This document shows, in pieces, positions 6,977 through 20,914 of a DNA stretch of 20,914 nucleotides. A program made the position numbers and the translations under genes. Positions within the stretch are counted from its first letter, which is position 1. Each line of letters starts with the position of its first letter. The stretch is from positions 1 to 20,914 of IMG/VR virus record IMGVR_UViG_3300022907_000864. One strand, 5' to 3'. Origin of the DNA: a virus. The notes under the pieces were generated by a model, which saw only the letters and a program-made list of their open reading frames with translations, searched no databases and was not told the origin of the DNA.

Positions 6977-9196
6977 TTACATATCACACTTGCCGCCAGC
7001 ACAGGCGACTTGTTGAACAGGGTTTACGTTATTAGTTTCTTCGATAACATTTGTAAAGTCTGCATCTTTATATTCTCTGTTAAGATCGACCCACTCTTTC
7101 CAATTATATACATCTTTCATACAATATGTCAACTGTTTTAGGTCTCCTGCGAAGTATTTTTCAGCAAATCTTTCACATCGTTCTTTCCACTCTTTCTTTC
7201 CGTTACCTTTAATCTTTTCGCCAAACCCAAGTAGACTGTCACATGCCGCCCAAAGGTTGTCCTCCCATAGAGTAAGTGCAACCTCGATAAGTCCACTCAC
7301 AAAGATAGAGGCATCGCCGTAGTGTGCGACCTGCTCACTTGGCAGATAGACTGTAGTGAATGGTGCCTGTGGAAAATCTTTATCACCAGAGATAGGAAGC
7401 AATGAAATACCACAAAAGTATTTTCTATTCTTATAAATATATTTCTCTACCTCATCCCATTCATCTGGTTTAACGTTAATAGTATTACTTACATTATGAT
7501 TTAACCAAGGTTGAGTACATAATTCTGGATTTGTACCATTGAGAACCCAACTTTGCTGTGTAGATTTTACATAGTCCAACAACTGTAGTGCGCTCACTTG
7601 GTTTTTAGTTTTGCCGCCATCCTTAACTTCTACACAGAACGATACAACGTCATCACTATCATTATTACTCCAAACACTTTCTTCACACGCTCTTGGGTTT
7701 TGTGTTCTAAAGTAATTATAAATGGGTTCCATTTTGTTTGCTTGGACTCGGCGGATATATCGTTTCGCATGGTGCGGGTGAATACCACTAGATGTTCCAA
7801 GAATACAACTTGATGTTCCTTCTGGTTTAATACATGTGGTTCTTGCTGCTTGGCGAATACCCAGCAGTTCTGCCATTCTAGCGTTTGTTTTCTTTACAAT
7901 ATTAGCGCCGCGCTTCTGTGATGATGGATCAAGACAAACTTCTGCGTTCTCCATCATGCCTGTCATACTAACGCCCAGCAGAGCTTCTCTTGCGATGATT
8001 CGTTCCGACGCACCGCCCAGATACTCAAACTCCGAGAAACCCGCCTGTAGTGTACCAATGATTGTAGCAGCACGGCAAGCATCAAAGAAGTCTTGTTCGG
8101 TTTTTACTTTTGAGCAGTTAATAGTTGATAGGTTACATGCCTGCCATCCAGATTCACCAGTTTCTTCACATACAGGCCACATGCCAATTTCAACACATGG
8201 ATTTACCAGAAGTTCTGTGCTATCCGCCCAAACAAATCCCGGCTCGCCAAACTCTTTAACAGAGTTCATTAGTTCTGCAAATTGTTCTTTTGTTGTTTCA
8301 TCTCGTACAAGTAGCGCAGAATTATTTGATCTTCCTCGCTGGGGATTGTCAATGAACCAAGTTCCTGTTTTAGCCCTTGCCATCTCACTATCGTCAGGAC
8401 TAAATACGCAAATGGTAGCAGAGCGGCGAACGCCACCAGATATAACAGCATCAGCGGTGTGCATAATAATATCATAAGCTTGGATAGGTTTGAGCTTTTT
8501 CTGTCCATCTTTAACTGCTTTATCTAGAATTTTTCTAATGTTTGTTAGAGCATTACGTAGAGGTTCCGGGCCGGGAGCTTTGCCGCCACTTGACTTTAGG
8601 TAAGATCCGGCGGGACGAATTTGACTGTAATCAAAATTAACAGTCTTGCCAGAATATTCACCGAATAGTTCATCTTGTAGATATTGGTCGAAGTAGCTCG
8701 ACACCAAAATGCCTACGGCATCACTCCATCCTTCAATGGTATCTGGAATAACGTATTTTTTACTACCCTCTTTCTTTGGTAGAAGGTCTGGTAGTTTTTC
8801 AATATGGTGTTTTTGTACGGAAAATCCAGTACCACAACCACACAGAAGTAGATACATACATTCTTGGAAGAATCTTACACGGTCGCAGTACGACACAATA
8901 CAATTATACATACGAGCATTGTGCTTGAAGATTGGTGATCCGCCAAACTGTAGCGCGCGCTGTGATCCAAGAACACGCTTCTTCCGCATTTGTTCATATG
9001 CCCACTCTATTTCTTCTGCGAGTTCTGGTTTATATGGATATGTTCCGTTTTCACTTTCTTGGTAAATATATTTATCAAGCATCATTTGCTTGACTCTATC
9101 TACTGCCTCGTTCCAAGTTTCTCGCCTTTTCTTTTCAGGAATCCAACGCGCATACTTACTAACAAATGTATAATCCATTAAAGACTTCAAAGACAT
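6977..9196 (-). CDS. nrdJ: Class II (adenosylcobalamin-dependent) ribonucleotide triphosphate reductase, monomeric type
   Basis: Reduces ribonucleoside triphosphates to dNTPs using a cobalamin-generated cysteinyl radical, so it needs no oxygen and no small subunit. Length is 739 aa, the size of the monomeric RTPR type. Key residues: NPCVEI (332-337) with the radical Cys334 and Glu336; likely reducing pair NC (C99) and ACNL (C354); the C-terminal CAGGKCDM with C732 and C737, which re-reduces the active site. Also visible are CGCGTGFSVQ (119-128), KPEGTSS (457-463) and GIHPHHAKRYIRR (471-483). The ATG has AGGA nine bases upstream. The gap between C334 and C354 is 20 residues, longer than I remember for the Lactobacillus enzyme. 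No intein or intron is visible. It works with the adjacent dUTPase in nucleotide supply. Confidence 0.93.
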   Translation of the reverse strand: MSLKSLMDYTFVSKYARWIPEKKRRETWNEAVDRVKQMMLDKYIYQESENGTYPYKPELAEEIEWAYEQMRKKRVLGSQRALQFGGSPIFKHNARMYNCIVSYCDRVRFFQECMYLLLCGCGTGFSVQKHHIEKLPDLLPKKEGSKKYVIPDTIEGWSDAVGILVSSYFDQYLQDELFGEYSGKTVNFDYSQIRPAGSYLKSSGGKAPGPEPLRNALTNIRKILDKAVKDGQKKLKPIQAYDIIMHTADAVISGGVRRSATICVFSPDDSEMARAKTGTWFIDNPQRGRSNNSALLVRDETTKEQFAELMNSVKEFGEPGFVWADSTELLVNPCVEIGMWPVCEETGESGWQACNLSTINCSKVKTEQDFFDACRAATIIGTLQAGFSEFEYLGGASERIIAREALLGVSMTGMMENAEVCLDPSSQKRGANIVKKTNARMAELLGIRQAARTTCIKPEGTSSCILGTSSGIHPHHAKRYIRRVQANKMEPIYNYFRTQNPRACEESVWSNNDSDDVVSFCVEVKDGGKTKNQVSALQLLDYVKSTQQSWVLNGTNPELCTQPWLNHNVSNTINVKPDEWDEVEKYIYKNRKYFCGISLLPISGDKDFPQAPFTTVYLPSEQVAHYGDASIFVSGLIEVALTLWEDNLWAACDSLLGFGEKIKGNGKKEWKERCERFAEKYFAGDLKQLTYCMKDVYNWKEWVDLNREYKDADFTNVIEETNNVNPVQQVACAGGKCDM

Positions 9197-9230
9197 TAAA
9201 TATTCCTCATGATTGTAAAACTAAATTAAT

Positions 9231-9416
9231 TTATTTTTCTTCTTTTTTCTGAACTATAGACAGCTCAATTCCTTCGCCTATACTGATGACCATTATATCT
9301 TTGCCATCTCTTTTTGTAAAGCTCACCTTATCTAAAATCTTTTTGACTTTATCAACATCTTCTTTTTCAATGTCATATTTGTCAAGAAGTACATCTAAAA
9401 TTTTGTTGATAATCAT
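9231..9416 (-). CDS. Small hypothetical protein
   Basis: A 61 aa protein with no recognisable motif, rich in Asp/Lys/Ile (MIINKILDVLLDKYDIEKED at its start) and predicted to be helix-strand. I start it at the ATG at 9416, which overlaps the stop of the upstream gene as ATGA and has GGAG ten bases upstream; the longer reading would require TTG at 9431. It is the last gene before the RNR and may belong to the membrane-protein block upstream. Confidence 0.6.
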   Translation of the reverse strand: MIINKILDVLLDKYDIEKEDVDKVKKILDKVSFTKRDGKDIMVISIGEGIELSIVQKKEEK

Positions 9417-10939: not shown

Positions 10940-11863
10940 CTATAAAAATTTTGTAGTTCCGTAATCTGGTAGTTCTCTCGCTGGAAATCCATCTACATCG
11001 CTAAATACCCAAGCTCCCTTTTGAGCCAACATGCCTCTTGCGTCTTTTTCCCTAATCCAAAAGCTACCATCTGGCTGTTCATGGATTTTTGGGCCGCTAT
11101 TCCATTTACCCCAACTATTCTGTACTAAGAATAATGTTTCTTTAAATCTTTCTTGGGTGTCGTCGCAAGCGATCCAACACATCGCGTGACTCCAGCCTTT
11201 CGATCTTGCTGCAATTCCTTTAGCATCTCTTCTACTAGAGAATCCATAACTAGAACAAACAGAAATACCGTAACCATTAGCAAGTGCATCTCGCGCCTCC
11301 TGTATAGTAGTTATAAGAGATATGGTTTTAACTTGATGTTTTCTTGCCTCTTTTGTATAAATGTCAAATGGTATTTTATGTTTAGCACCAAGACTTGAAT
11401 CATATTTAGATAGATCGACAATGCCGTAGTCTTTTCTTAATAAGATGCCACCATTTTCATGAACATATTTTGCAGCAGTAGAACACATCATGCCCTGTTT
11501 TTTGTGTCCTCTGCTTTGGTAGATGGCTTCTGTTGCACCTCTGGCAACAAACTGCTCCATATCTCCCTTTACGTCTATCTCTACGCTTCTTGTTATGTCT
11601 ATAGCGTTTCTAGTGGCGTGAGATACGCAGTCGCCAGTTGTTTGACGTTCTGACGGCCCAAAACTGGGGTCGAACTTTAATAAAGATTTAAACGGGAGAG
11701 AGAGTTTCCCTTCTCCATCTCCCCATAATTGGTATGCGGCAGCTCCGAATAGTGGATTTTTAAGCTCGCCAAGCAGTCTTGCGACTTCTTTTTTGTCACA
11801 CTCTGCGCCTTTAAATCCTTCACGATAAGCGTTTAAAAGCTCGCGTGGCGTTTTAAAATCCAT
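10940..11863 (-). CDS. Papain-like (C1-type) cysteine protease
   Basis: A 307 aa protein that carries the papain-family catalytic residues in the expected order: Q74 (oxyanion hole) and C79 in RQTTGDCVSHA (73-82), H226 in WSHAMCW (224-230), and N249 in VQNSWGKWNSG (247-257). The Asn-Ser-Trp-Gly motif is a classic papain signature. No signal peptide or membrane segment is visible, so the enzyme acts in the cytoplasm or is exported by a holin-like route. Possible roles are cleavage of envelope or wall peptides at lysis, processing of virion proteins, or attack on host proteins. It sits between a holin-like gene and a lipoprotein gene, which favours a lysis or exit role. The ATG has AGGA seven bases upstream. 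Confidence 0.85.
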   Translation of the reverse strand: MDFKTPRELLNAYREGFKGAECDKKEVARLLGELKNPLFGAAAYQLWGDGEGKLSLPFKSLLKFDPSFGPSERQTTGDCVSHATRNAIDITRSVEIDVKGDMEQFVARGATEAIYQSRGHKKQGMMCSTAAKYVHENGGILLRKDYGIVDLSKYDSSLGAKHKIPFDIYTKEARKHQVKTISLITTIQEARDALANGYGISVCSSYGFSSRRDAKGIAARSKGWSHAMCWIACDDTQERFKETLFLVQNSWGKWNSGPKIHEQPDGSFWIREKDARGMLAQKGAWVFSDVDGFPARELPDYGTTKFL

Positions 11864-12711: not shown

Positions 12712-13380
12712 TTACTTACCAGTAATTGGCTTGTAGTCGAAGAAGTCGCCGCCAGAACTTACGTCCGTGGTAACGAAGTCAACTTTCATAACCAATTCGC
12801 CCGGAATAGCTCTGCTTGGATTTGCAGCGCTGTCTGCTGCTCTATCCGATTCATTGCCATCCGCGATGTCGTGCATGTTCTCGTTCAATGCTACTGGAGC
12901 CTGAGCAGCGGTTCCGCCAGCGTTCAACCAGATTAGTCTGGAGAGGTTTGACGAACCGTTTGCCTTGGTTCCGGTCAAGGTGTACTGACCAGCTCTAAAC
13001 TTGGTCAAAGTCTTAGCACCAAAGGAGTGTTCAAACTGATGAATCGAGCGACGAGTGTTGGAATCCGATCCCGGAATCAACATTTTCGTGCCAGCCACGC
13101 CAGAAAGAGTAGTGCTAATTGTACGGATGACATAGTTGCCAGCCGAACTATATGCGAAAGTTCCGCCGCTCAAAGCCTTGGTATTTGCAACAAGACCGTT
13201 TGCTGCTTCTACTGGCCCCGGAGTCTTGCCGAAATCAGAAGCGTTGTCTTTGAGTGACGAAGCTCTAGTGATAACATCGCCAGTGGTGATGTTTCCAAGA
13301 ATTGTTCCGCCCTGAGATTGGGCCGAAAACGATCCACCAGTAGTATTGACTAGGTGGCTATTGCTACTAGGAACTGCCAT
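12712..13380 (-). CDS. Putative abundant virion structural protein
   Basis: A 222 aa protein with a composition typical of phage capsid, decoration or tail proteins: rich in Gly, Ser, Ala, Thr and Asn, no cysteine, and few charges at the N-terminus (MAVPSSNSHLVNTTGG). Beta-strand-like stretches alternate with turns (YVIRTISTTLSG, QYTLTGTK, LVMKVDFVTTDV). It ends DFFDYKPITGK. The gene has its own 87 nt leader, a GGAG ribosome site, and a strong terminator directly after it, so it forms a single-gene unit. Its base composition looks visibly less AT-rich than its neighbours, consistent with high expression. The precise role (decoration, head fibre, tail tube) is not recognised. Confidence 0.65.
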   Translation of the reverse strand: MAVPSSNSHLVNTTGGSFSAQSQGGTILGNITTGDVITRASSLKDNASDFGKTPGPVEAANGLVANTKALSGGTFAYSSAGNYVIRTISTTLSGVAGTKMLIPGSDSNTRRSIHQFEHSFGAKTLTKFRAGQYTLTGTKANGSSNLSRLIWLNAGGTAAQAPVALNENMHDIADGNESDRAADSAANPSRAIPGELVMKVDFVTTDVSSGGDFFDYKPITGK

Positions 13381-13467: not shown

Positions 13468-13929
13468 TCAGATTTCAATCTTGTTATTGTTTTTGTAAAA
13501 TTTAACCGCTTTTGCTACTTTTCTTCTGGCTGTTTCTCGACTATATCCATTTTGTTTTCCAATCTCATTCATCGTCATATTATATACATATTTTTGTTCT
13601 AACAGGGACGCATATTCTTTTGGTATGCCATCAAAAACATCTATAAGATTAGAGGATCTAGACACAGTATTTACTTCAATAGTTTCGGTTGCAAATTCTC
13701 TGATTCTCTTTTTTAGCTCGTTTTTGAAAGCGAACACTAGATTTTGATATAAGAACGAAGTAAACTTAGTGCCTCTTTTTGGATCGTACTTCTTAGCACA
13801 TTCCCAAAGAGTATTTAGTTTAATAGAGTCTAGCTGATCTGGGTCAATAGATCTATATCTAGCTCCAACCGCGTTCATTATTCCCACTACATTAGAATCA
13901 TTCAAAAGCTCGTTCATTTTGCTGTCCAT
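13468..13929 (-). CDS. Phage sigma factor (gp55-like, region 2 and region 4 only)
   Basis: A 153 aa RNA polymerase sigma factor that would redirect host polymerase to phage promoters, probably late genes. A sigma region 2-like part spans about 30-75 (TLWECAKKYDPKRGTKFTSFLYQNLVFAFKNELKKR broken across these residues, with the conserved YDPKRGTKFTSF pattern of core-binding helices). A region 4-like HTH spans about 105-150 (EYASLLEQKYVYNMTMNEIG, then SRETARRKVAKAVKFYK). Regions 1 and 3 are absent, as in T4 gp55 and ECF-type factors. I use ATG 13929, which has GAGGAG five bases upstream; a GTG at 13935 would lie on top of it. It overlaps the upstream gene by 32 nt. Confidence 0.8.
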   Translation of the reverse strand: MDSKMNELLNDSNVVGIMNAVGARYRSIDPDQLDSIKLNTLWECAKKYDPKRGTKFTSFLYQNLVFAFKNELKKRIREFATETIEVNTVSRSSNLIDVFDGIPKEYASLLEQKYVYNMTMNEIGKQNGYSRETARRKVAKAVKFYKNNNKIEI

Positions 13930-14539
13930 TATCACTCCTCAAAATTATTCCACCAAAGTTATTTTTCTTATCTATTAACGAACTCAGAGCATCAAGGTAC
14001 TCTGCGTTTACTTCATTTGCTACAACATATTCTATTTTACCCTCTGGATAAACCAATATAGACCAAAACTTATTATCTTTTAACTGACCTTTTAATAGAT
14101 CCACAGTTTCTTGTATTCCATCGTTTGAAAATATCTCGTTCTCAGTATAAGAACATATCCTCTCATTGATTTGATTTCTCACATCTCTTATATCAAAAAG
14201 TTTAGCAACGCCTATAAAAAATGAGTATTTACCCATGATCTTTAGCGCCTCAATCCCGTCGATTTGTGTGTTTAGTACATCTGATATACTTCCTGTTATC
14301 GGAAAATTAGTGTGTGCTATCCAGCAATCCCATCTATCAGACGGTTTTAGTATGGAGTCCTCTGGATATGCCCCCATTGGAGTATATATCAGCCTAGACT
14401 GAACAGGTATAAAGAAGTCTGGCGAGACCTGCTCTTCACTCATCTCATAAGAAGGCTCCTGCTGCGGAATTTCTTTTTCTTCTTCCGGCGACATTTTAGC
14501 GTTCCAGCTTTCCCATAGTATTTTTTTCTTGGAATCCAT
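13898..14539 (-). CDS. Hypothetical phage protein
   Basis: A 213 aa soluble acidic protein of unknown function. The N-terminal 45 residues are disordered and Glu/Pro-rich (EEEKEIPQQEPSYEMSEEQ). The main body begins near FFIPVQSRLIYTPMG and includes SDRWDCWIAHTNFPIT, a helical stretch with KIMGKYSFFIGVAKLFDIRDV, and a C-terminal segment with KFWSILVYPEGKIEYVV. The fold looks alpha/beta. The ATG has AGGG at a suitable distance. It overlaps the sigma gene at its end, so it may be co-expressed with it. Confidence 0.7.
   Translation of the reverse strand: MDSKKKILWESWNAKMSPEEEKEIPQQEPSYEMSEEQVSPDFFIPVQSRLIYTPMGAYPEDSILKPSDRWDCWIAHTNFPITGSISDVLNTQIDGIEALKIMGKYSFFIGVAKLFDIRDVRNQINERICSYTENEIFSNDGIQETVDLLKGQLKDNKFWSILVYPEGKIEYVVANEVNAEYLDALSSLIDKKNNFGGIILRSDNGQQNERAFE
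13935..13940 (-). promoter_or_regulatory. Ribosome binding site deciding the sigma-factor start
   Basis: GAGGAG lies five bases before ATG 13929-13927. A more upstream GTG at 13935-13933 would have no spacer, so the ATG is the better start. The site is inside the upstream coding sequence. Confidence 0.6.
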
Positions 14540-14548
14540 AACAAAACC

Positions 14549-14899
14549 CTACATTAATGTGGAAGCGTCTAGTGGAGGTATTACTACGTCGTCTTCTGAA
14601 ACTCTTTTATTCTGCTCGGCTATCTTTTTTAATGCCGAATAGAAAGAAACCAGCCTTTCCAGTTGATCTATTTGGTCTTCGCTTTCAGACATTTTTTCTA
14701 GGTTTCTTAATATCTTATAGCCAATATCTTTGTTTCCAAGATGGACTAAGATAGTAGCCATACAGCTTATGCCCGTATCATCATCCTGCCAGTCACAAGA
14801 AAAACCCATTTCGCCATCAGCATAACACTCTATTACTAGGCAAGCTCCATCAACATTATCTGAATGTTGATTTTCCGACCCCGGTAATTGCTCGTTCAT
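14549..14899 (-). CDS. Hypothetical protein
   Basis: A 116 aa acidic protein. The first 15 residues look flexible; then comes ACLVIECYADGEMGFSCDW (beta-like, two to three Cys), DDTGISCMATILVHLG, and a helical C-terminal half (ILRNLEKMSESEDQIDQLERL) with a coiled-coil-like pattern. No enzyme motif. It overlaps the next gene upstream by 44 nt and has GGAG seven bases before its ATG. Confidence 0.7.
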   Translation of the reverse strand: MNEQLPGSENQHSDNVDGACLVIECYADGEMGFSCDWQDDDTGISCMATILVHLGNKDIGYKILRNLEKMSESEDQIDQLERLVSFYSALKKIAEQNKRVSEDDVVIPPLDASTLM

Positions 14900-15251
14900 A
14901 AAATGGCTCCAATTTTATCTGTTTTTCGTGGATTTGTGAAAATGTCAAAAATCTACCGTCTTTTTCAGCGTCAATTACTTCAGGCGTGCAAGTAATATAC
15001 ACACTTTCAGCGGTCATTTCTCCATTATTATTAATTAATCTAAAGTCAAATAACTGCTTTTCAAACCACTTATAGTCTACTTTGAAGTACCTTGAGAAGA
15101 GTTGTTTTAATGTCTCTTTCTCATCTTTTGTTGACGCTATTATTGATGGTATTTTATTATCATTAGTAAAAAATATTTTAGTATAATTATCACTGATATA
15201 ACTTCTTTGCTTATTATACTGTATCGCCACTAGGCTTATCTTAACTTTCAT
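14856..15251 (-). CDS. Hypothetical protein, weak Nudix-like outline
   Basis: A 131 aa protein. Its N-terminal pattern, MKVKISLVAIQYNKQRS followed by ISDNYTKIFFTNDNKIPS and a helix (EKETLKQLFSRYFK), recalls the strand-strand-Nudix-box-helix order of Nudix domains, and a later YITCTPEVI resembles a Nudix strand. The metal-binding REUXEE box is absent, so if it is Nudix-derived it should not hydrolyse substrates in the usual way. This is a low-confidence resemblance; it may be an unrelated alpha/beta protein. The ATG (15251) overlaps the upstream gene by 11 nt and lacks a strong ribosome site close by. Confidence 0.55.
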   Translation of the reverse strand: MKVKISLVAIQYNKQRSYISDNYTKIFFTNDNKIPSIIASTKDEKETLKQLFSRYFKVDYKWFEKQLFDFRLINNNGEMTAESVYITCTPEVIDAEKDGRFLTFSQIHEKQIKLEPFYERAITGVGKSTFR

Positions 15252-15465
15252 CTTTTTGGCTTGACTCCATAGCTTTTTCTTTTAATTTTTGCACAAAATT
15301 AAACTGATTCAAAACGCTTGAATAATTCTGAACATTGTGTATCAGCATGTCTAGAGATCCTGAATCTGATTCATCTAATAGATTATTTATATCTAGTGCC
15401 TGACGATCCATGAGTGCCTTGTAGTGGGACTCCAAAGCGTTAATCATTGTCAATCTTTTATCCAT
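15241..15465 (-). CDS. Small helical hypothetical protein
   Basis: A 74 aa protein with heptad-like helices (TMINALESHYKALMDRQALD and NVQNYSSVLNQFNFVQKLKE) and no enzyme motif; probably a small coiled coil. It overlaps the upstream glycosyltransferase by 8 nt, and GGAGG lies six bases before its ATG. Its place between the glycan cassette and the small unknown genes gives no specific clue. Confidence 0.65.
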   Translation of the reverse strand: MDKRLTMINALESHYKALMDRQALDINNLLDESDSGSLDMLIHNVQNYSSVLNQFNFVQKLKEKAMESSQKDES

Positions 15466-16513
15466 TTACAGCCTCCAATAGTTTATCAACAGTATTATTC
15501 CAAGAAAACTTACTAGCAGTTTCTACGCCGCTATTGTTTACGCCAAGCAGACCATCCTGCTTTAGCTTGTGTACATCTCTCATATATTCTATCACAACAT
15601 CTTTCTGGTCGCAAGACAATTCTGCCCAAAATCCTTTTTTACCATCAAAGAATACTCCATCAAAGGCTGTTTCTAAATTTTCTATGTTCACGAGTCGCGA
15701 GTTTACGGGAGAACAGAACTCCGTATGTGCTGAATAGTTGGTGGTTATAACATGCTTGCCGCACGCCATCATTTCGAGCAACTCAAGATTCCAGCCCTCT
15801 GCCCGCGCGGGAAACACTCCACAATCAACCATATTCATAAGCCTAGCAACATCTTCATGATGCTGCTGTCTAGGAATTAGTCGGACTTTATCACTAAGTC
15901 CCGATGTTTTATAAAGTTTTTCCCAGTATTCTCTTTGTTCTTGCTTGAGAAATGGGTTTTCGCACATCATCCACAGTTCTACATTATCGTCCTTTGTAAA
16001 GGCTTTATTAAAACATTCTGCTAGAATATCATGACCTTTGCGCTTTTCCCATTTGCCACAATTAAAAAAGATTGTTTTATTAGGATTAGACACTTTATTA
16101 GGATAAAATATTTCAGTGTCCACACCAAGCGGTACAACACTAGCCTTAATTCCCGTTTGATTATCAACTATTTCGGATGCCCATTTAGAACAAACCAACA
16201 ATTCATCACAATGATGAAGGCTTATTTTTTCTCTTTGGTCAAACTCAGTTAGCTCAAAAATAGGAAATCCAAAATGCTTTCCTTTGCCGACCCTTTGAAA
16301 TAGGTCGTGCTGATGCCATATTTTAACATGCGGCCTGCTTAACCGAAGATTAGTAATATTATTCATAGACCGAGCAACGAAATCTTCAACAGGTTCGGGC
16401 TGACCTATAGGATACAGCGCAACAGAATCATCTCTATTGTAGAGTTCTTTCAAAATATTGTAGCCAGCCACCCCATAGCCCAAGCTATTTATTGGTGTTT
16501 GCAAATTAATCAT
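15458..16513 (-). CDS. GT4-type (GT-B fold) glycosyltransferase
   Basis: A 351 aa glycosyltransferase that would move a sugar from a nucleotide-sugar donor to an acceptor. The N-terminus (MINLQTPINSLGYGVAGYNIL) has the glycine-rich acceptor-side loop of GT-B enzymes. The C-terminal nucleotide-binding domain shows FFNCGKWEKRKGHDI (strand followed by K/R-K-G, as in GT4), and the donor-site E-x7-E: ARAEGWNLELLEMMACGKHVI (residues about 240-260, with E in AEG and E in LLE). Start chosen at ATG 16513, because the longer version begins with TTG; it overlaps the cytidylyltransferase end by 8 nt. Donor and acceptor cannot be read from the sequence. Confidence 0.85.
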   Translation of the reverse strand: MINLQTPINSLGYGVAGYNILKELYNRDDSVALYPIGQPEPVEDFVARSMNNITNLRLSRPHVKIWHQHDLFQRVGKGKHFGFPIFELTEFDQREKISLHHCDELLVCSKWASEIVDNQTGIKASVVPLGVDTEIFYPNKVSNPNKTIFFNCGKWEKRKGHDILAECFNKAFTKDDNVELWMMCENPFLKQEQREYWEKLYKTSGLSDKVRLIPRQQHHEDVARLMNMVDCGVFPARAEGWNLELLEMMACGKHVITTNYSAHTEFCSPVNSRLVNIENLETAFDGVFFDGKKGFWAELSCDQKDVVIEYMRDVHKLKQDGLLGVNNSGVETASKFSWNNTVDKLLEAVNG

Positions 16514-16931
16514 TTTGACCAAGTATCCTTTTTCTTATTATTGTTGAGCTTATGTTTTTAGTGTAGGGTAAGTATACCAGAAGTATCCCCTTTTCGTCAA
16601 GCCAATCTTGACTAAAATTCATTTGTTTATAGTAATCTTTATGTCTCCAGTCATCCCCAATGGCGATTATGTCTGGCTTAACTAATTCTATCGCTGGTTT
16701 ACTATCTTCTCCACCCGTGTTTGCTATTATATTTATAGAAGGATCAAACCCATTGATACTCATACATCTTTCACTAAAGTTCATTATAGGATAATCTTTT
16801 TTGTATTGATATATAAATTCATCTTCGTTTAAAGAAACAACAATATTATCGCAAAGCTTTTTACAGTTTCTTAAAAAAGACATATGACCATAGTGAAAAA
16901 GGTCAAATGTCCCTCCTGTATATAGTTTCAT
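16506..16931 (-). CDS. TagD/GCT-like cytidylyltransferase
   Basis: A 141 aa nucleotidyltransferase of the glycerol-3-phosphate cytidylyltransferase type, which couples CTP to a phosphorylated polyol or sugar. Motifs: GGTFDLFHYGH (6-16) with the HxGH nucleotide-binding motif, KKDYPIM (44-50), GDDW (92-95), and SSTIIRKRI (128-136), the ISST-type motif in the RTxGISTT position. Length is close to TagD. The product could be CDP-glycerol, CDP-ribitol or another activated group used by the neighbouring transferases; TagD-like proteins also include ADP-heptose and FAD synthetase relatives, so the substrate is unknown. The ATG has AAGGAG upstream. It lies between two glycosyltransferase genes. Confidence 0.85.
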   Translation of the reverse strand: MKLYTGGTFDLFHYGHMSFLRNCKKLCDNIVVSLNEDEFIYQYKKDYPIMNFSERCMSINGFDPSINIIANTGGEDSKPAIELVKPDIIAIGDDWRHKDYYKQMNFSQDWLDEKGILLVYLPYTKNISSTIIRKRILGQND

Positions 16932-16940
16932 AGCCTCTCC

Positions 16941-17828
16941 TTATTTTTCAAACATAGAAAAATATCTTTTTACATGCTCTTTACTCATAAGCAAGTGATG
17001 TAAAACACAGTCCTGTTTTGCCATTAGGTATAAATAATGAGACTTTTCCACGTTATCTATCAGCAATTCTGGAAACACGCTTCTGTTGCTATTACCATTC
17101 ACATGGTAATGAGAAGAACACATTTTTACACTATTGTTACATGTTCCTATTATGTTGTAATTTTTATAGTTTGCATTCGTAGATAAAAATAATTCTATCA
17201 AATGCTCGTCATGAACCCACGCAGTGTTACAGGTATTTTCCAAAGCCTGACCATGTTTAGTAATTTCAACTAGATTATTAATCCCAGTAGATGAAGTCAT
17301 GTCTAGATTATTATCAGAAAGAAAATCTAAAAAATTTAAGCAGAACTGTCTACTAAAACAAGAATACCCTGTATCGCACCTACATATGGTTTCTGGATAT
17401 TCAGATTTAAAAAGTTTATGAATTTCTAATTTCATAGACGGATATGGTCTTAACTGACCAGTATTTTTTTGTTTAATTAAATCTTCCGAACTTATATTGA
17501 AACAATTTATATATTGATTTTCTTCAGATATATAGTCAGAAATGTTTTTACTCATATCTAAGATAAGAGTGTCCATGTCTACAAAGAAACAATAGTCAGC
17601 GCCAGACTCAACGGCAGAATAAAACCTAACAGCTTTTCTTAAAAGTGGACATAGATAATTATTAGATTTAGATATTAAGTTTTTTATCCTGAAATCATTT
17701 TCATTCATCACATTTAATTTTATATTGTGCATAGAGCAATATTTGTACATGCCAGACAAAGATTTACTATGCCAATTTTCAAACCCGCTAAAACCATAGG
17801 TGTTTGTAATAAAAAACTGATTGTTCAT
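16941..17828 (-). CDS. Putative GT-A glycosyltransferase (DxD type)
   Basis: A 295 aa protein. A short hydrophobic strand followed by DMD (84-86, in FFVDMDTLILD) is the GT-A metal/nucleotide DxD signature. Upstream, LLRKAVRFYSAVESGADY has the helix-before-DxD layout of GT8/GT34-like and related enzymes. Later, DTGYSCFSRQFC and WVHDEHLIELFL resemble the acceptor and C-terminal part of such enzymes. Several Cys residues occur. The ATG overlaps the sulfotransferase stop as ATGA. The family is a reasonable pattern match; substrate unknown. Confidence 0.65.
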   Translation of the reverse strand: MNNQFFITNTYGFSGFENWHSKSLSGMYKYCSMHNIKLNVMNENDFRIKNLISKSNNYLCPLLRKAVRFYSAVESGADYCFFVDMDTLILDMSKNISDYISEENQYINCFNISSEDLIKQKNTGQLRPYPSMKLEIHKLFKSEYPETICRCDTGYSCFSRQFCLNFLDFLSDNNLDMTSSTGINNLVEITKHGQALENTCNTAWVHDEHLIELFLSTNANYKNYNIIGTCNNSVKMCSSHYHVNGNSNRSVFPELLIDNVEKSHYLYLMAKQDCVLHHLLMSKEHVKRYFSMFEK

Positions 17829-18421
17829 ATGTAGTTGAATTTTTCCATTTCGTTTTGATAAATATAAATAATTTGTTTAATAGTTTCTTTTTTAATTGAC
17901 AAATCCATACCATCGCTACTATTGATTTTTTTAGATAGATCTGGTAACGGTTTTTCAAGCTTGTCAAATAATATTTTACAGGACTGTTCAAAATTTTCAT
18001 ATTTAAGATAAGTCGTATGACAGTTGTTATCTGTATAATTTTCAAATATTGTACTTCCACGACGCTTTTTTTCTAGATTCGACATTATCCATTTGTCAGA
18101 ATTTGGATTTTCTTTATAAAAATCTAGACACTTGGTTTTCCATCCTTCTGGATAAACAGAGTTTATATGATCTATCCCAAGATTTGACACTCTTTTCATA
18201 AGACCCCAATCGCTTTTATGGCATTCAATATGATTTCTAACAAATAATATAAATTCATATCCTTTAGCTCCTAATTTTATAGCATCCGACGCTCTGCCAT
18301 GTTTTAAATTAATGTTATCAACAAAAAGATCATCATACTTAGATAGTTCTCTGTGTAAAAATGTAGATCCGGTTTGAGGCACTCCAAGGTAAGCGATTTT
18401 ATTTTTATGACATATTATCAT
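17825..18421 (-). CDS. PAPS-dependent sulfotransferase-like protein
   Basis: A 198 aa protein with the two main sulfotransferase motifs. The 5'-phosphosulfate loop is YLGVPQTGSTFLHREL (11-26), close to the canonical PKTGSTSL type. The 3'-phosphate motif is FILFVRNHIECHKSDW (57-72), with the expected R-N at 62-63 and a Ser at 70. The enzyme would move a sulfo group from PAPS to a carbohydrate or other hydroxyl. Length is short (about 200 aa) but typical for carbohydrate-sulfotransferase-like domains in phages and bacteria. The ATG has GGAG six bases upstream and overlaps the upstream glycosyltransferase by 17 nt. It implies that the phage modifies a glycan by sulfation, if host PAPS is available. 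Confidence 0.75.
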   Translation of the reverse strand: MIICHKNKIAYLGVPQTGSTFLHRELSKYDDLFVDNINLKHGRASDAIKLGAKGYEFILFVRNHIECHKSDWGLMKRVSNLGIDHINSVYPEGWKTKCLDFYKENPNSDKWIMSNLEKKRRGSTIFENYTDNNCHTTYLKYENFEQSCKILFDKLEKPLPDLSKKINSSDGMDLSIKKETIKQIIYIYQNEMEKFNYI

Positions 18422-19379
18422 TTAAGGCTCCTTCTAATTTTGCAAGTAGGTTAGTTGCGAAATAGGTTCCACTTATCCATTCTTTATTCATACTCTTCAA
18501 ATATAGGTGTGCCTGATATATGAGATCGTCATTCTTCAAAAGATCGTGAGCGTGTTCTATATTATCATAATATAAAGGATAGTCAACACCAAGATATTCT
18601 ACAACGGGATCAATTTTATTGATTAATATTGGCGTATTTCTAGCCATAGGCTCTATAACGGCATTATTGGCCGAGCTATCAAATAAATCTAAGAAAACTA
18701 TAGAATTGGATAGCAGCTCATCATAATCTTTGTTTGGAATATGATTTAATGTTTGCACGCTAGACCATCTATATTTATTTTCGTAAAAGCCTCGGTCATG
18801 CTTTTCTTGAATTGACAACATCTGCATCGCATAGTCATACGCTCCGGGAAGCCAGACTTTAGAATATTTATTAGAGTGCTTTAAACTTAAAAACGACTCC
18901 ATGTTCCTCAACCAATATCCTATTTGTACTATCTTTCTATCTTTTGAAAAGAAGTTTTCTGGTTTCCATTTGTTTCTCGGTATCTCGGTTGGGTGCTTTA
19001 CCGCAATAACCGGAACTTCAATTTTCTTTACGAGCCAGTGTCTCAAATATTCTGATAAGACAACAATAGCCTTACAGTTATTTAGCGATTGCCTAAATAG
19101 CGGCTTATCGAGCAGCGCGTGCGGAGAGTTGTAGTCATCAAACCATGAAGGCGTATTTGGAGGATTGTGTAGAACCCCGACCCAAGGTCTTTTGTATGGC
19201 AGAACGCTAGAGCCTCCTTTATATTCAGACAATACATTCCAGCAAAAAGTTTTTTCTAAGAAAGAATCAAACAAAATGCCAGACCTTGAGTGGTATGGTT
19301 GTAGCTTAGACATACAATAAGACCAGCCAGAGCGATGATTACTAAAGGAGGTTACATCAGAAAGGTCAAGTCTAATCAT
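18405..19379 (-). CDS. GT-B type glycosyltransferase
   Basis: A 324 aa putative glycosyltransferase. Residues around VGVLHNPPNTPSWFDD and CKAIVVLSEYLRHWL look like the acceptor-side domain of a GT-B enzyme (the strand-helix 'VVLSEYLR' pattern). KIVQIGYWLRNMESFL opens the second Rossmann domain. FLDLFDSSANNAVIEPMARN (about 233-252) is equivalent to the donor-binding N/E motif that ends in IE, followed by TPILINK. The ATG overlaps the previous stop as ATGA and has no strong ribosome site, suggesting translational coupling. Substrate unknown. Confidence 0.7.
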   Translation of the reverse strand: MIRLDLSDVTSFSNHRSGWSYCMSKLQPYHSRSGILFDSFLEKTFCWNVLSEYKGGSSVLPYKRPWVGVLHNPPNTPSWFDDYNSPHALLDKPLFRQSLNNCKAIVVLSEYLRHWLVKKIEVPVIAVKHPTEIPRNKWKPENFFSKDRKIVQIGYWLRNMESFLSLKHSNKYSKVWLPGAYDYAMQMLSIQEKHDRGFYENKYRWSSVQTLNHIPNKDYDELLSNSIVFLDLFDSSANNAVIEPMARNTPILINKIDPVVEYLGVDYPLYYDNIEHAHDLLKNDDLIYQAHLYLKSMNKEWISGTYFATNLLAKLEGALNDNMS

Positions 19380-20221
19380 ATCAATTTTTTGCCCATCATT
19401 CCTTCAAATATTCCAATACTGTATTTACATTTTAACAAAGCTAGGAACTCTACATACTCAGAAGAAACACTTTCTTCAAAAAGCCATCTTGGTTGATTGT
19501 AGTCTAATAACTCTGGGGATTCAACAAATCTTTTCCAAACCTCTTTTAACTTGGAACTATCATCCATCATAGACATGGAAGCGCCTTCCTGATACCCCAT
19601 ATTATAGTAATACTCAGAAACAACGTCTGGAGAGAAGTCAGAGTCGCAAAATCTTTTTACTTTGGTTAAGTTTGAACAATGATATATCTTATACTTCTTT
19701 GCAATACCAAGACAAAATGACGCGCTCTCTACAGAAAATCCCCTTGGAGTGTTTGAGCAATAGTATCCCGTCCTATTATAAGCAGGGCCAGATATAACAC
19801 TCCCCACTAGGCTGCCATAGTTATGAGGCTCTTTTGTTATATCGCAAACAACACTGTCACCAAAATTAATATCATATTTATGATAAGATTCTTGAATATA
19901 CCTAGTGCTTACATCTTTATTTCCATTGGTTGTATATTTTGGGCCAAATAATATGCCCGCATCTCTATACAAATTATTAAGAGTTATAGCATTAAATATG
20001 AAATCGCTTGGAATATAAGTCGAATTATCAAATATTAAAACTAAACTCGACTCCACCCTATTGGGCATTGTGTCAGCACTACAAGTAATAAAATCATAAG
20101 ATACACCAAGGTCGTCTAATGATTTTTTCACATGGAGAGAATTAAAAAACTGAGTACCATCATATACAATAGAATCCGGCCCACCGTTTGACGGCAGGTG
20201 GAATACAGTTAAATCCTTCAT
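19376..20221 (-). CDS. Unknown protein of the glycan cassette, possibly glycosyltransferase-like
   Basis: A 281 aa protein with an alpha/beta outline: TVFHLPSNGGPDSIVYD, then SYDFITCSADTMPN and LVLIFDNSTYIPSDFIF, where FDN could sit in the place of a DxD. Later it has SVVCDITKEPHNYGSLVGS and GYYCSNTPRGFSVES. I do not recognise the family and the key motifs are not clear, so the transferase suggestion rests mainly on its place as the first gene of the sugar cassette. The ATG follows AGGGA at a good distance and the gene ends as ATGA on the next one. Confidence 0.5.
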   Translation of the reverse strand: MKDLTVFHLPSNGGPDSIVYDGTQFFNSLHVKKSLDDLGVSYDFITCSADTMPNRVESSLVLIFDNSTYIPSDFIFNAITLNNLYRDAGILFGPKYTTNGNKDVSTRYIQESYHKYDINFGDSVVCDITKEPHNYGSLVGSVISGPAYNRTGYYCSNTPRGFSVESASFCLGIAKKYKIYHCSNLTKVKRFCDSDFSPDVVSEYYYNMGYQEGASMSMMDDSSKLKEVWKRFVESPELLDYNQPRWLFEESVSSEYVEFLALLKCKYSIGIFEGMMGKKLI

Positions 20222-20236
20222 TTTATCCCTGCAAAA

Positions 20237-20533
20237 TTAAAACAAATTTAAGTCTTTTATAAAATATCCTAAAGCACTAGATACGGCTGAAACAAATATT
20301 AGACCATACCAATAACTACAACAGTCTGAATACAAAGAGTATTTTGGTATATCTTCTCTATTTCTTTTAGTTCTTTCAAGCCCCTTCATAACTTCGGAGT
20401 TAGTAAATAGTAGCTCATCAATAGAGCCATCGTTGCACTCAATTATCACTAGATTATAGTGATCGTTTGCCGCCCCGTGCTTATCTTTATTCTCTACCCT
20501 ATAAATTTTACCAGCTTTTGCACCCCGTATCAT
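20237..20533 (-). CDS. Small protein with C-terminal membrane segment
   Basis: A 98 aa protein. Its N-terminal part has strand-rich MIRGAKAGKIYRVENKDKHG and HYNLVIIECNDGS, which recalls a small SH3-like or beta-barrel fold. Its C-terminus (YWYGLIFVSAVSSALGYFI, about 74-92) is a single hydrophobic segment, suggesting a tail anchor. Start chosen at ATG 20533 because AGGAG (20541-20545) lies seven bases upstream and the open frame further upstream overlaps the coding sequence of the preceding gene. Function unknown. Confidence 0.6.
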   Translation of the reverse strand: MIRGAKAGKIYRVENKDKHGAANDHYNLVIIECNDGSIDELLFTNSEVMKGLERTKRNREDIPKYSLYSDCCSYWYGLIFVSAVSSALGYFIKDLNLF

Positions 20534-20540
20534 TGTATAT

Positions 20541-20545
20541 CTCCT
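20541..20545 (-). promoter_or_regulatory. Ribosome binding site deciding the start at 20533
   Basis: AGGAG on the minus strand, seven bases before ATG 20533-20531. It overlaps the stop codon of the upstream gene (20546-20544), so termination and re-initiation are closely coupled. Confidence 0.6.
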
Positions 20546-20914
20546 ACCATTTTTTGCAAGACCAGTATCTAGCTTTCCACTTCGGGCCGGGAGCCGTGTC
20601 GCACTTATGTCGCGCTCTAAAGCTCTTTCGTCGCGCTGGATCGTCTTTCTTGATTTCCATGTTTGGATCTCCAAAGCGCACGATAACAACCTTACCGCTT
20701 CCATTTTTGGTGTAAACTGCGAACTTTTTTGGCCCATCTGGAGTTCGGAATGGTTTATTTAAGCTCACCTTGCGGCCCTGATATTCTGCGGATTGAGCCT
20801 TTTTCCAAGCCTCTGGATCTGGTCGGTCTTTATCTCCACGTTTTGCTGGCTTATAATCCTTGCCTTCTCTCTCTTTCTTTCTGCGAATATTCTCCCACAA
20901 TCCGGGTCGTTCGG
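20544..20914 (-). CDS. Partial CDS: C-terminal part of a conserved phage protein
   Basis: The frame is open to the right edge, so the gene begins outside the window. Internally a TTG at 20900 could look like a start, but the codons upstream of it continue ERPG before LWENIRRKKE, and PGLWxNI followed by charged K/R/E is a recurrent C-terminal motif in phage proteins, so I treat it as a fragment. Visible: LWENIRRKKEREGKDYKPAK, a GDKDRP linker, then RFGDPNMEI, RRKSFRARHKCD and KARYWSCKKW near the end. I recall this second block from many uncultured phage proteins without a clear function. The gene is real; its role (possibly head-related) is not supported by the sequence alone. Confidence 0.7.
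   Translation of the reverse strand, partial: ERPGLWENIRRKKEREGKDYKPAKRGDKDRPDPEAWKKAQSAEYQGRKVSLNKPFRTPDGPKKFAVYTKNGSGKVVIVRFGDPNMEIKKDDPARRKSFRARHKCDTAPGPKWKARYWSCKKW

Follow-up and report, generated by a model that had tools for sequence, protein, structure and literature searches.

A constant glycosyltransferase frame around an exchangeable slot in a large clade of uncultured tailed phages

The IMG/VR virus record IMGVR_UViG_3300022907_000864, itself a genome fragment, was analysed over its entire length of 20,914 bases (hereafter the window), along which the main genes all lie on the minus strand. Six of these genes, G1 to G6, form a run at positions 15458-20221 (-) in which neighbours overlap or abut. 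The order G1-G2-...-G6 recurs in 31 other viral contigs, confirming at the level of gene order that the run is more than chance. Comparison of these contigs further indicates that G1, G2 and G6 form a constant frame around a slot whose contents are often replaced. The locus is best explained as a modular glycan-decoration island of a large clade of uncultured tailed phages. The six genes, with lengths in amino acids (aa), are as follows.

G1, 19376..20221, minus strand: 281 aa, predicted GT-A-fold (GT2-like) glycosyltransferase (GT) with a degenerate DxD; constant first cassette gene
G2, 18405..19379, minus strand: 324 aa, putative divergent GT4/GT-B-like GT; constant second gene
G3, 17825..18421, minus strand: 198 aa, probable sulfotransferase dependent on 3'-phosphoadenosine-5'-phosphosulfate (PAPS); variable slot; GC 29%
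G4, 16941..17828, minus strand: 295 aa, predicted GT34-like GT-A GT (FVDMD); slot gene
G5, 16506..16931, minus strand: 141 aa, predicted TagD/ECT-like cytidylyltransferase; slot gene
G6, 15458..16513, minus strand: 351 aa (corrected ATG), predicted GT4 GT with an E-x7-E-type motif; clade core gene

Spacings are -4 for G1/G2, -17 for G2/G3, -4 for G3/G4 and +9 for G4/G5, and G5 and G6 overlap at ATGATTAA. The listed TTG start of G6 at 16522 is probably wrong, since the alignment of relatives begins at the ATG at 16513, which gives 351 aa.

Gene order and slot turnover among relatives

In the window and the 31 other contigs, 32 in all, G1 always directly precedes G2, and G6 follows after zero to four slot genes. 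This bears out the claim, made in a sequence-only reading of the window, of six tightly packed glycan-type genes on one strand, five of which (G1, G2, G4, G5 and G6) are well supported, as well as its expectation that the same order would be found in other phage contigs. The products do not fall mostly into unrelated families, nor do the genes occur as scattered single copies lacking a common order. A sulfotransferase-like gene occupies the slot in 22 of the contigs (about nine of 16 distinct lineages). It is joined by an FkbM methyltransferase in L002, by a GT in L061, by a DUF6473 protein and a cytidylyltransferase in the L030 group, by a double radical-SAM/SPASM protein in the L051 group and by a 299-aa protein in the L144 group. 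The L164 slot (7984-9309) holds a single 442-aa open reading frame (ORF), an apparent fusion in which the N-terminus carries a motif of sulfotransferases and the rest of the protein matches FkbM. Slots with radical-SAM genes only are found in L057, L058 and L072, empty slots in L162, L167 and L169, and further slot contents include other GTs and nucleotidyltransferase-like proteins. The radical-SAM proteins of L051 (3672-6107), L058 and L072 are 812-845 aa long, with two tandem SPASM-like plus radical-SAM units.

The slot sulfotransferases fall into at least three types that cannot be aligned with one another: the window G3; a type in L002, L061, L030 and L144, whose profile matches sulfotransferases in the PDB, weakly; and a type in L051 and L069 that matches Sulfotransfer_2 and PHROG 3347, the L051-type enzyme retaining the customary Lys of the P-loop. 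Because at least three such types recur at a single slot within a conserved glycan locus, they are linked to the capping of glycans and not to scattered metabolism. Trees of G2 and G6 (22 rows) require ten changes of slot type, and the window and L002 carry sister G6 genes (100/100) flanking different slots. The slot genes also have a lower GC content (29-31%) than the frame genes (35-39%).

The surroundings of the island were compared through a G6 scan of viral contigs, which found 315, of which 80 were kept. The clade order is up2-up1-[variable]-G6, followed either by d1-d4, a sigma gene and str222 or directly by a peptidase gene. The corresponding features of the window are these.

up1, 20237..20737, minus strand: 166 aa; left boundary of the variable island; 89% identical in L028
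d1-d4, 13898..15465, minus strand: four small proteins after G6; right flank of the island; diverged in L028
str222, window 12712-13380: 222 aa, Ser/Thr-rich (22%), 98% identical in L028; virion-like look
peptidase-like gene, window 10940-11863: 307 aa; papain-type (C1) look by eye

L028 represents a natural empty site. Its ribonucleotide reductase (RNR) and str222 are 97% and 98% identical to those of the window, and it has 16 bp where the window has the 3.7 kb of G1-G5, with G6 following up1 after 13 bp. G1-G5 can therefore be replaced as a block, and G6 is a gene of the clade as a whole that also occurs in relatives lacking G1-G5. This pattern does not fit the proposal, also made from sequence alone, of a single cassette encoding a full pathway: G6 is clade-wide without G1-G5, G3-G5 sit in a fast-turnover slot, and relatives carry their sugar-nucleotide genes at other places.

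Family assignment of the six proteins

G1 has no significant match in Pfam, PHROG or NCBIfam. Its AlphaFold model, built from 14 homologues, has a predicted local distance difference test score (pLDDT) of 85, and its top PDB matches are all GT-A proteins, namely TarP/TarS, cellulose synthase and SpsA (probability 1.0, with a template modelling score of only about 0.4). The model thus gives good support for a GT-A-fold protein. The position of the DxD metal motif reads DNS, DED, DQN, LEN or KQN among the 14 homologues, and this degeneracy makes the activity of G1 uncertain. G2 has a weak match to the Pfam family Glyco_transf_4 (GT4) at 6.9e-4, under the cut-off, and the alignment of its relatives has a mean column identity of 53%; its assignment as a remote GT4 protein is well supported at this level. 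G6 is predicted with good support to be a clear GT4 protein, with a Glycos_transf_1 domain at 60-63 bits against a cut-off of 26-27 (Pfam 5e-17), a PHROG glycosyltransferase match at 5e-24 and the E-x7-E motif EGWNLELLE.

Searches with tblastn against a phage collection (50,697 phage records, as stated for G2) gave no match for G1, G2 or G3, and matches for G6 at just 23-27% identity. Peptide-pattern scans of viral contigs with the window G2 or G3 alone found nothing; the G2 search worked with the G2 of a relative and with the alignment as query. G2 also has homologues in further phages and among bacteria; those of Moorena, Shewanella and Alteromonas likewise adjoin sulfotransferases. The Shewanella and Alteromonas homologues stand amid other glycan and sulfotransferase genes, one of them near a GDP-mannose-dehydratase-like gene. 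Flagellin glycosylation islands were considered as the home of the cellular G2 genes, which found no support in the Shewanella and Alteromonas genomes checked: the flagellins there are at a distance of 2 Mb or on a different contig.

Among the slot genes, G4 matches PF05637 (GT34) over residues 21-104 with 26.7 bits against a gathering score of 23 (5.8e-6) and carries the DxD motif as FVDMD, which supports well its assignment as GT34-like; distant homologues occupy the same slot in L061 and L165. G5 matches CTP_transf_like at 3.6e-17 and contains both the HxGH (HYGH) and ISSTxxR (ISSTIIR) motifs. Its closest solved relatives are ECT and TagD (1coz, E 1.1e-13), and it falls below the TIGR01518 TagD equivalog cut-off (66.7 against 165.4 bits). 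It is accordingly assigned, with good support and at superfamily level only, as a predicted cytidylyltransferase of the TagD/ECT superfamily, homologues of which directly precede G6 in L013 and the L030 group.

G3 was first called from its motif and is probably a PAPS-dependent sulfotransferase. The 3'-phosphate-binding motif is present, with FVRNHIECHKS aligning such that R62 is invariant and S70 nearly invariant. The 5'-phosphosulfate-binding loop reads VPQTGSTF, with Gln in place of the Lys/Arg of the expected PKTGxTS, and the assignment is graded only as probable because of this replacement. G3 has neither a Pfam match nor a meaningful PHROG match. A profile of G3 and its relatives places sulfotransferases first among solved structures (best E 0.002), with rows other than G3 contributing, and the top Foldseek matches of the G3 model (pLDDT 63) are sulfotransferases, weakly so (E 0.06 to 0.5). 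The search with G3 through 34 records of relatives returned a single weak match, in a 753-aa frame. The early call of a sulfotransferase thus remains plausible from motifs and from indirect profile and fold matches, but lacks the P-loop Lys and a Pfam model.

Target of the glycan

Our tentative preference, to which we give somewhat less than an even chance, is that a virion protein is decorated in the cytoplasm with a glycan that is variably capped and in many cases sulfated. The soluble enzymes would act in the host cytoplasm late in infection. G6, together with the three GT4 proteins and the nucleotide-sugar enzymes of a second island present in relatives (described below), would assemble a short shared glycan on a surface protein of the virion, either of the tail or a decoration protein, and G1 and G2 would extend it. 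The slot enzymes would add the cap, which in the window would consist of one more sugar, a CDP-activated group of the glycerol- or ethanolamine-phosphate type, and sulfate from host PAPS. A slot swap would then alter the outer chemistry of the particle, including its charge, its adsorption and its recognition by grazers or host factors. The acceptor, sugars, sulfation and timing in this scheme are presumed steps, built on gene content, order and turnover read from the contigs.

The evidence for this comes in part from searches of 17 records of the phages, all fragmentary. The initiating sugar-phosphate transferase Bac_transf (PF02397) and the flippase Polysacc_synt (PF01943) are both absent, with positive controls, and the locus thus does not appear to be of the Wzx/Wzy type, which would combine an initiating transferase with a flippase. 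No transmembrane segments are predicted in the six cassette proteins or in the second-island proteins of G012, the record of the closest relative. Of enzymes that hydroxylate DNA bases, neither Tet_JBP (silent control) nor a hydroxymethylase of the thymidylate-synthase type (positive control) was found in these records. The lack of transmembrane segments, lipid-carrier transferase, flippase and base-hydroxylating enzyme therefore points to protein decoration by soluble enzymes in the cytoplasm, and the tail-gene context in distant relatives points to the virion. A realistic, if somewhat doubtful, alternative is that the soluble enzymes modify intermediates of the host lipopolysaccharide (LPS) core or capsule at the inner membrane face with sugars, a CDP-derived group and sulfate, and so block superinfection or grazers. 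The LPS gene clusters of phage P-SSM2, read as surface alteration (PMC2984593; PMC7824862), and the cellular G2 homologues in glycan islands with sulfotransferases are consistent with this, as is the fast turnover of the slot, also typical of O-antigen loci. It is less easily reconciled with cassette enzymes devoid of transmembrane segments, with the missing lipid-carrier initiating transferase and Wzx-type flippase, and with the position of the cassette inside tail gene modules in distant relatives. The gap between the two is small, since the enzymes of the LPS core are likewise soluble and the P-SSM2 precedent is read as host-surface alteration. On the missing membrane and lipid-linked steps and the tail neighbours in distant relatives, which are not decisive, we lean towards the virion.

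Two further explanations fit the data less well. The up1-G6 interval could be a hotspot that merely collects unrelated accessory genes, such that the six genes do not act together; in other relatives the interval does hold DUF1501 and trypsin-like genes or unassigned ORFs, and L168 has an HD-hydrolase-like gene. However, G1 and G2 are always adjacent with G6 always after them, the slot genes are glycan-type enzymes bar a few exceptions (DUF6473, unassigned ORFs, L166/L168), and the overlapping or abutting genes suggest joint translation, which makes this improbable. Phage GTs that modify DNA are well known, and the transferases here could act on the phage DNA itself, adding sugars to a hydroxylated base and sulfate further out. 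DNA-modifying phage GTs are also discussed in PMC12619734, and glycosyl- and sulfotransferase systems acting on nucleotides are reported in phages (PMC10829341). Yet the base-hydroxylating enzymes looked for are missing from the 17 fragmentary records, with the silent Tet_JBP control noted above, and normal synthesis of dTTP is suggested by a dCMP deaminase and an ORF resembling ThyX by eye in the L028 record, along with a dUTPase-like ORF in the window. The G2 and sulfotransferase genes of distant phages, moreover, adjoin tail genes, and we consider DNA hypermodification very unlikely.

Several points weigh against virion decoration itself. No acceptor is identified, and the window genes adjoining the cassette are not proven to be structural. 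The LPS core is also built by soluble cytoplasmic GTs, so that missing membrane proteins are not decisive, and the glycan and sulfotransferase surroundings of G2 homologues in Shewanella and Alteromonas resemble those of surface polysaccharide loci. The DxD of G1 is degenerate, and the Gln of the G3 loop together with the mediocre model means that sulfation here could be lost. No APS kinase lies above the family cut-off in relatives; phage-made PAPS is accordingly rejected, and sulfate would depend on the host. The records are, finally, all fragments.

A bolder extension, which we regard as possible but unlikely, is a phage 'serotype' locus, in which constant GTs frame a slot that swaps caps (sulfation, methylation, radical-SAM, extra sugars) and thereby yields fast-changing sulfated virion glycans. 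No earlier case is known to us of phage-encoded enzymes producing a sulfated glycan on the virion, and this one, if real, would be the first that we know of. Should the virion be the target, phages would have in this locus a way of switching surface antigens, with a layout like that of O-antigen loci in bacteria; should it be the host, the locus would be a clear candidate for superinfection exclusion through a sulfated surface.

Related systems and wider setting

Taken singly, clusters of glycan genes in phages, glycosylation of virions and sulfotransferases of phages are already known. The two gene clusters of cyanophage P-SSM2, which hold 24 LPS-type genes and are interpreted as altering the surface (PMC2984593; PMC7824862), likewise combine several GT families with nucleotidyltransferases on a large tailed phage and are polymorphic among relatives. 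Here, in contrast, constant ends (G1, G2, G6) frame a swapped middle in which sulfotransferase and radical-SAM/SPASM genes recur; the text of PMC7824862 does not mention sulfotransferases, a distinction drawn from descriptions of the clusters. Mycobacteriophages (Che8, Corndog, Myrna) encode GTs that glycosylate their capsid and tail tube (Freeman et al. 2023, via PMC12363180); as proposed here, the enzymes are soluble, and their presumed substrates are phage proteins in the cytoplasm. As described in PMC12363180, those systems comprise GTs only, with no sulfotransferase mentioned; the present locus is known from genes alone. Bacterial O-antigen and capsule loci share the constant flanks, the variable middle and the combination of an activation enzyme with GTs and decorating transferases; unlike them, the related records here have no detected flippase or initiating transferase, and the cassette has no transmembrane protein.

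The view that sulfation is unusual for a phage could not be upheld. PHROG 3347, 'Galactose-3-O-sulfotransferase', is matched by the cassette sulfotransferases of L051, L056 and L104 (1.6e-9 to 9e-25), although the window G3 and the L002 and L030 types match no PHROG meaningfully. Sulfotransfer_3 proteins are found in marine OM43 phages and Synechococcus phage S-SRM01, and the role of such recurrent sulfotransferases in marine viruses is called unclear (PMC10580990); the slot context names partner genes for them. As far as the literature examined goes, a constant-ends, swapped-middle layout with a recurrent non-homologous sulfation slot has not been described, and a search for SPASM, sulfotransferase, phage and glycosyltransferase together found nothing relevant.

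Beyond the cassette, most large relatives also have a second island of three GT4 genes and an epimerase. Among the 17 records, an epimerase occurs in 13, GT4 genes in 15 and three consecutive GT4 genes in 12. In the L028 record this island comprises three GT4 genes, epimerases, a DegT aminotransferase, nucleotidyltransferases and a TagD-like gene, with tail genes beyond. In the closest relative it lies as follows and ends near the tape-measure region.

Second glycan island, L085:4020-19503 and L084:18071-18808 (record G012): also includes an acetyltransferase-like gene

In the distant phages L103-L106, a G2 fusion, radical-SAM genes and up to three sulfotransferases stand directly after tail-fibre and LamG-like virion genes.

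Other window genes include those for DnaB-like helicase, PhoH-like and sigma-like proteins, which have PHROG matches, and for RecA-like and class II RNR proteins, whose matches are to phage proteins; an Rfam search of the window gave no matches. The str222 protein, for which neither a family nor a structure match was found, is a candidate glycan acceptor. The peptidase-like protein is strongly conserved across the clade, with 91-95% identity in L028 and L002, and has no Pfam match; in many relatives its gene is the one immediately following G6.

Upstream of the island boundary, L028:6676-7344 encodes a PAP2-family phosphatase (PF01569, 2.5e-12), possibly linked to envelope or lipid-phosphate chemistry, and several relatives have similar-sized ORFs there. 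On another phage contig, a 384-aa protein (L107:5942-7096) with a motif, GAGGGTGAG, that is FtsZ/tubulin-like in look adjoins G2 and sulfotransferase genes. DUF1501 proteins, which we take to belong to the alkaline phosphatase/sulfatase-type superfamily, are encoded in several relatives (L028:3811-6311, L050:7930-9141, L069, L144); they have signal-like N-termini, are often paired and sometimes accompany trypsin-like proteases. Such proteins are typical of Planctomycetes and Verrucomicrobia, and their genes hint at hosts among PVC (Planctomycetes-Verrucomicrobia-Chlamydiae) bacteria.

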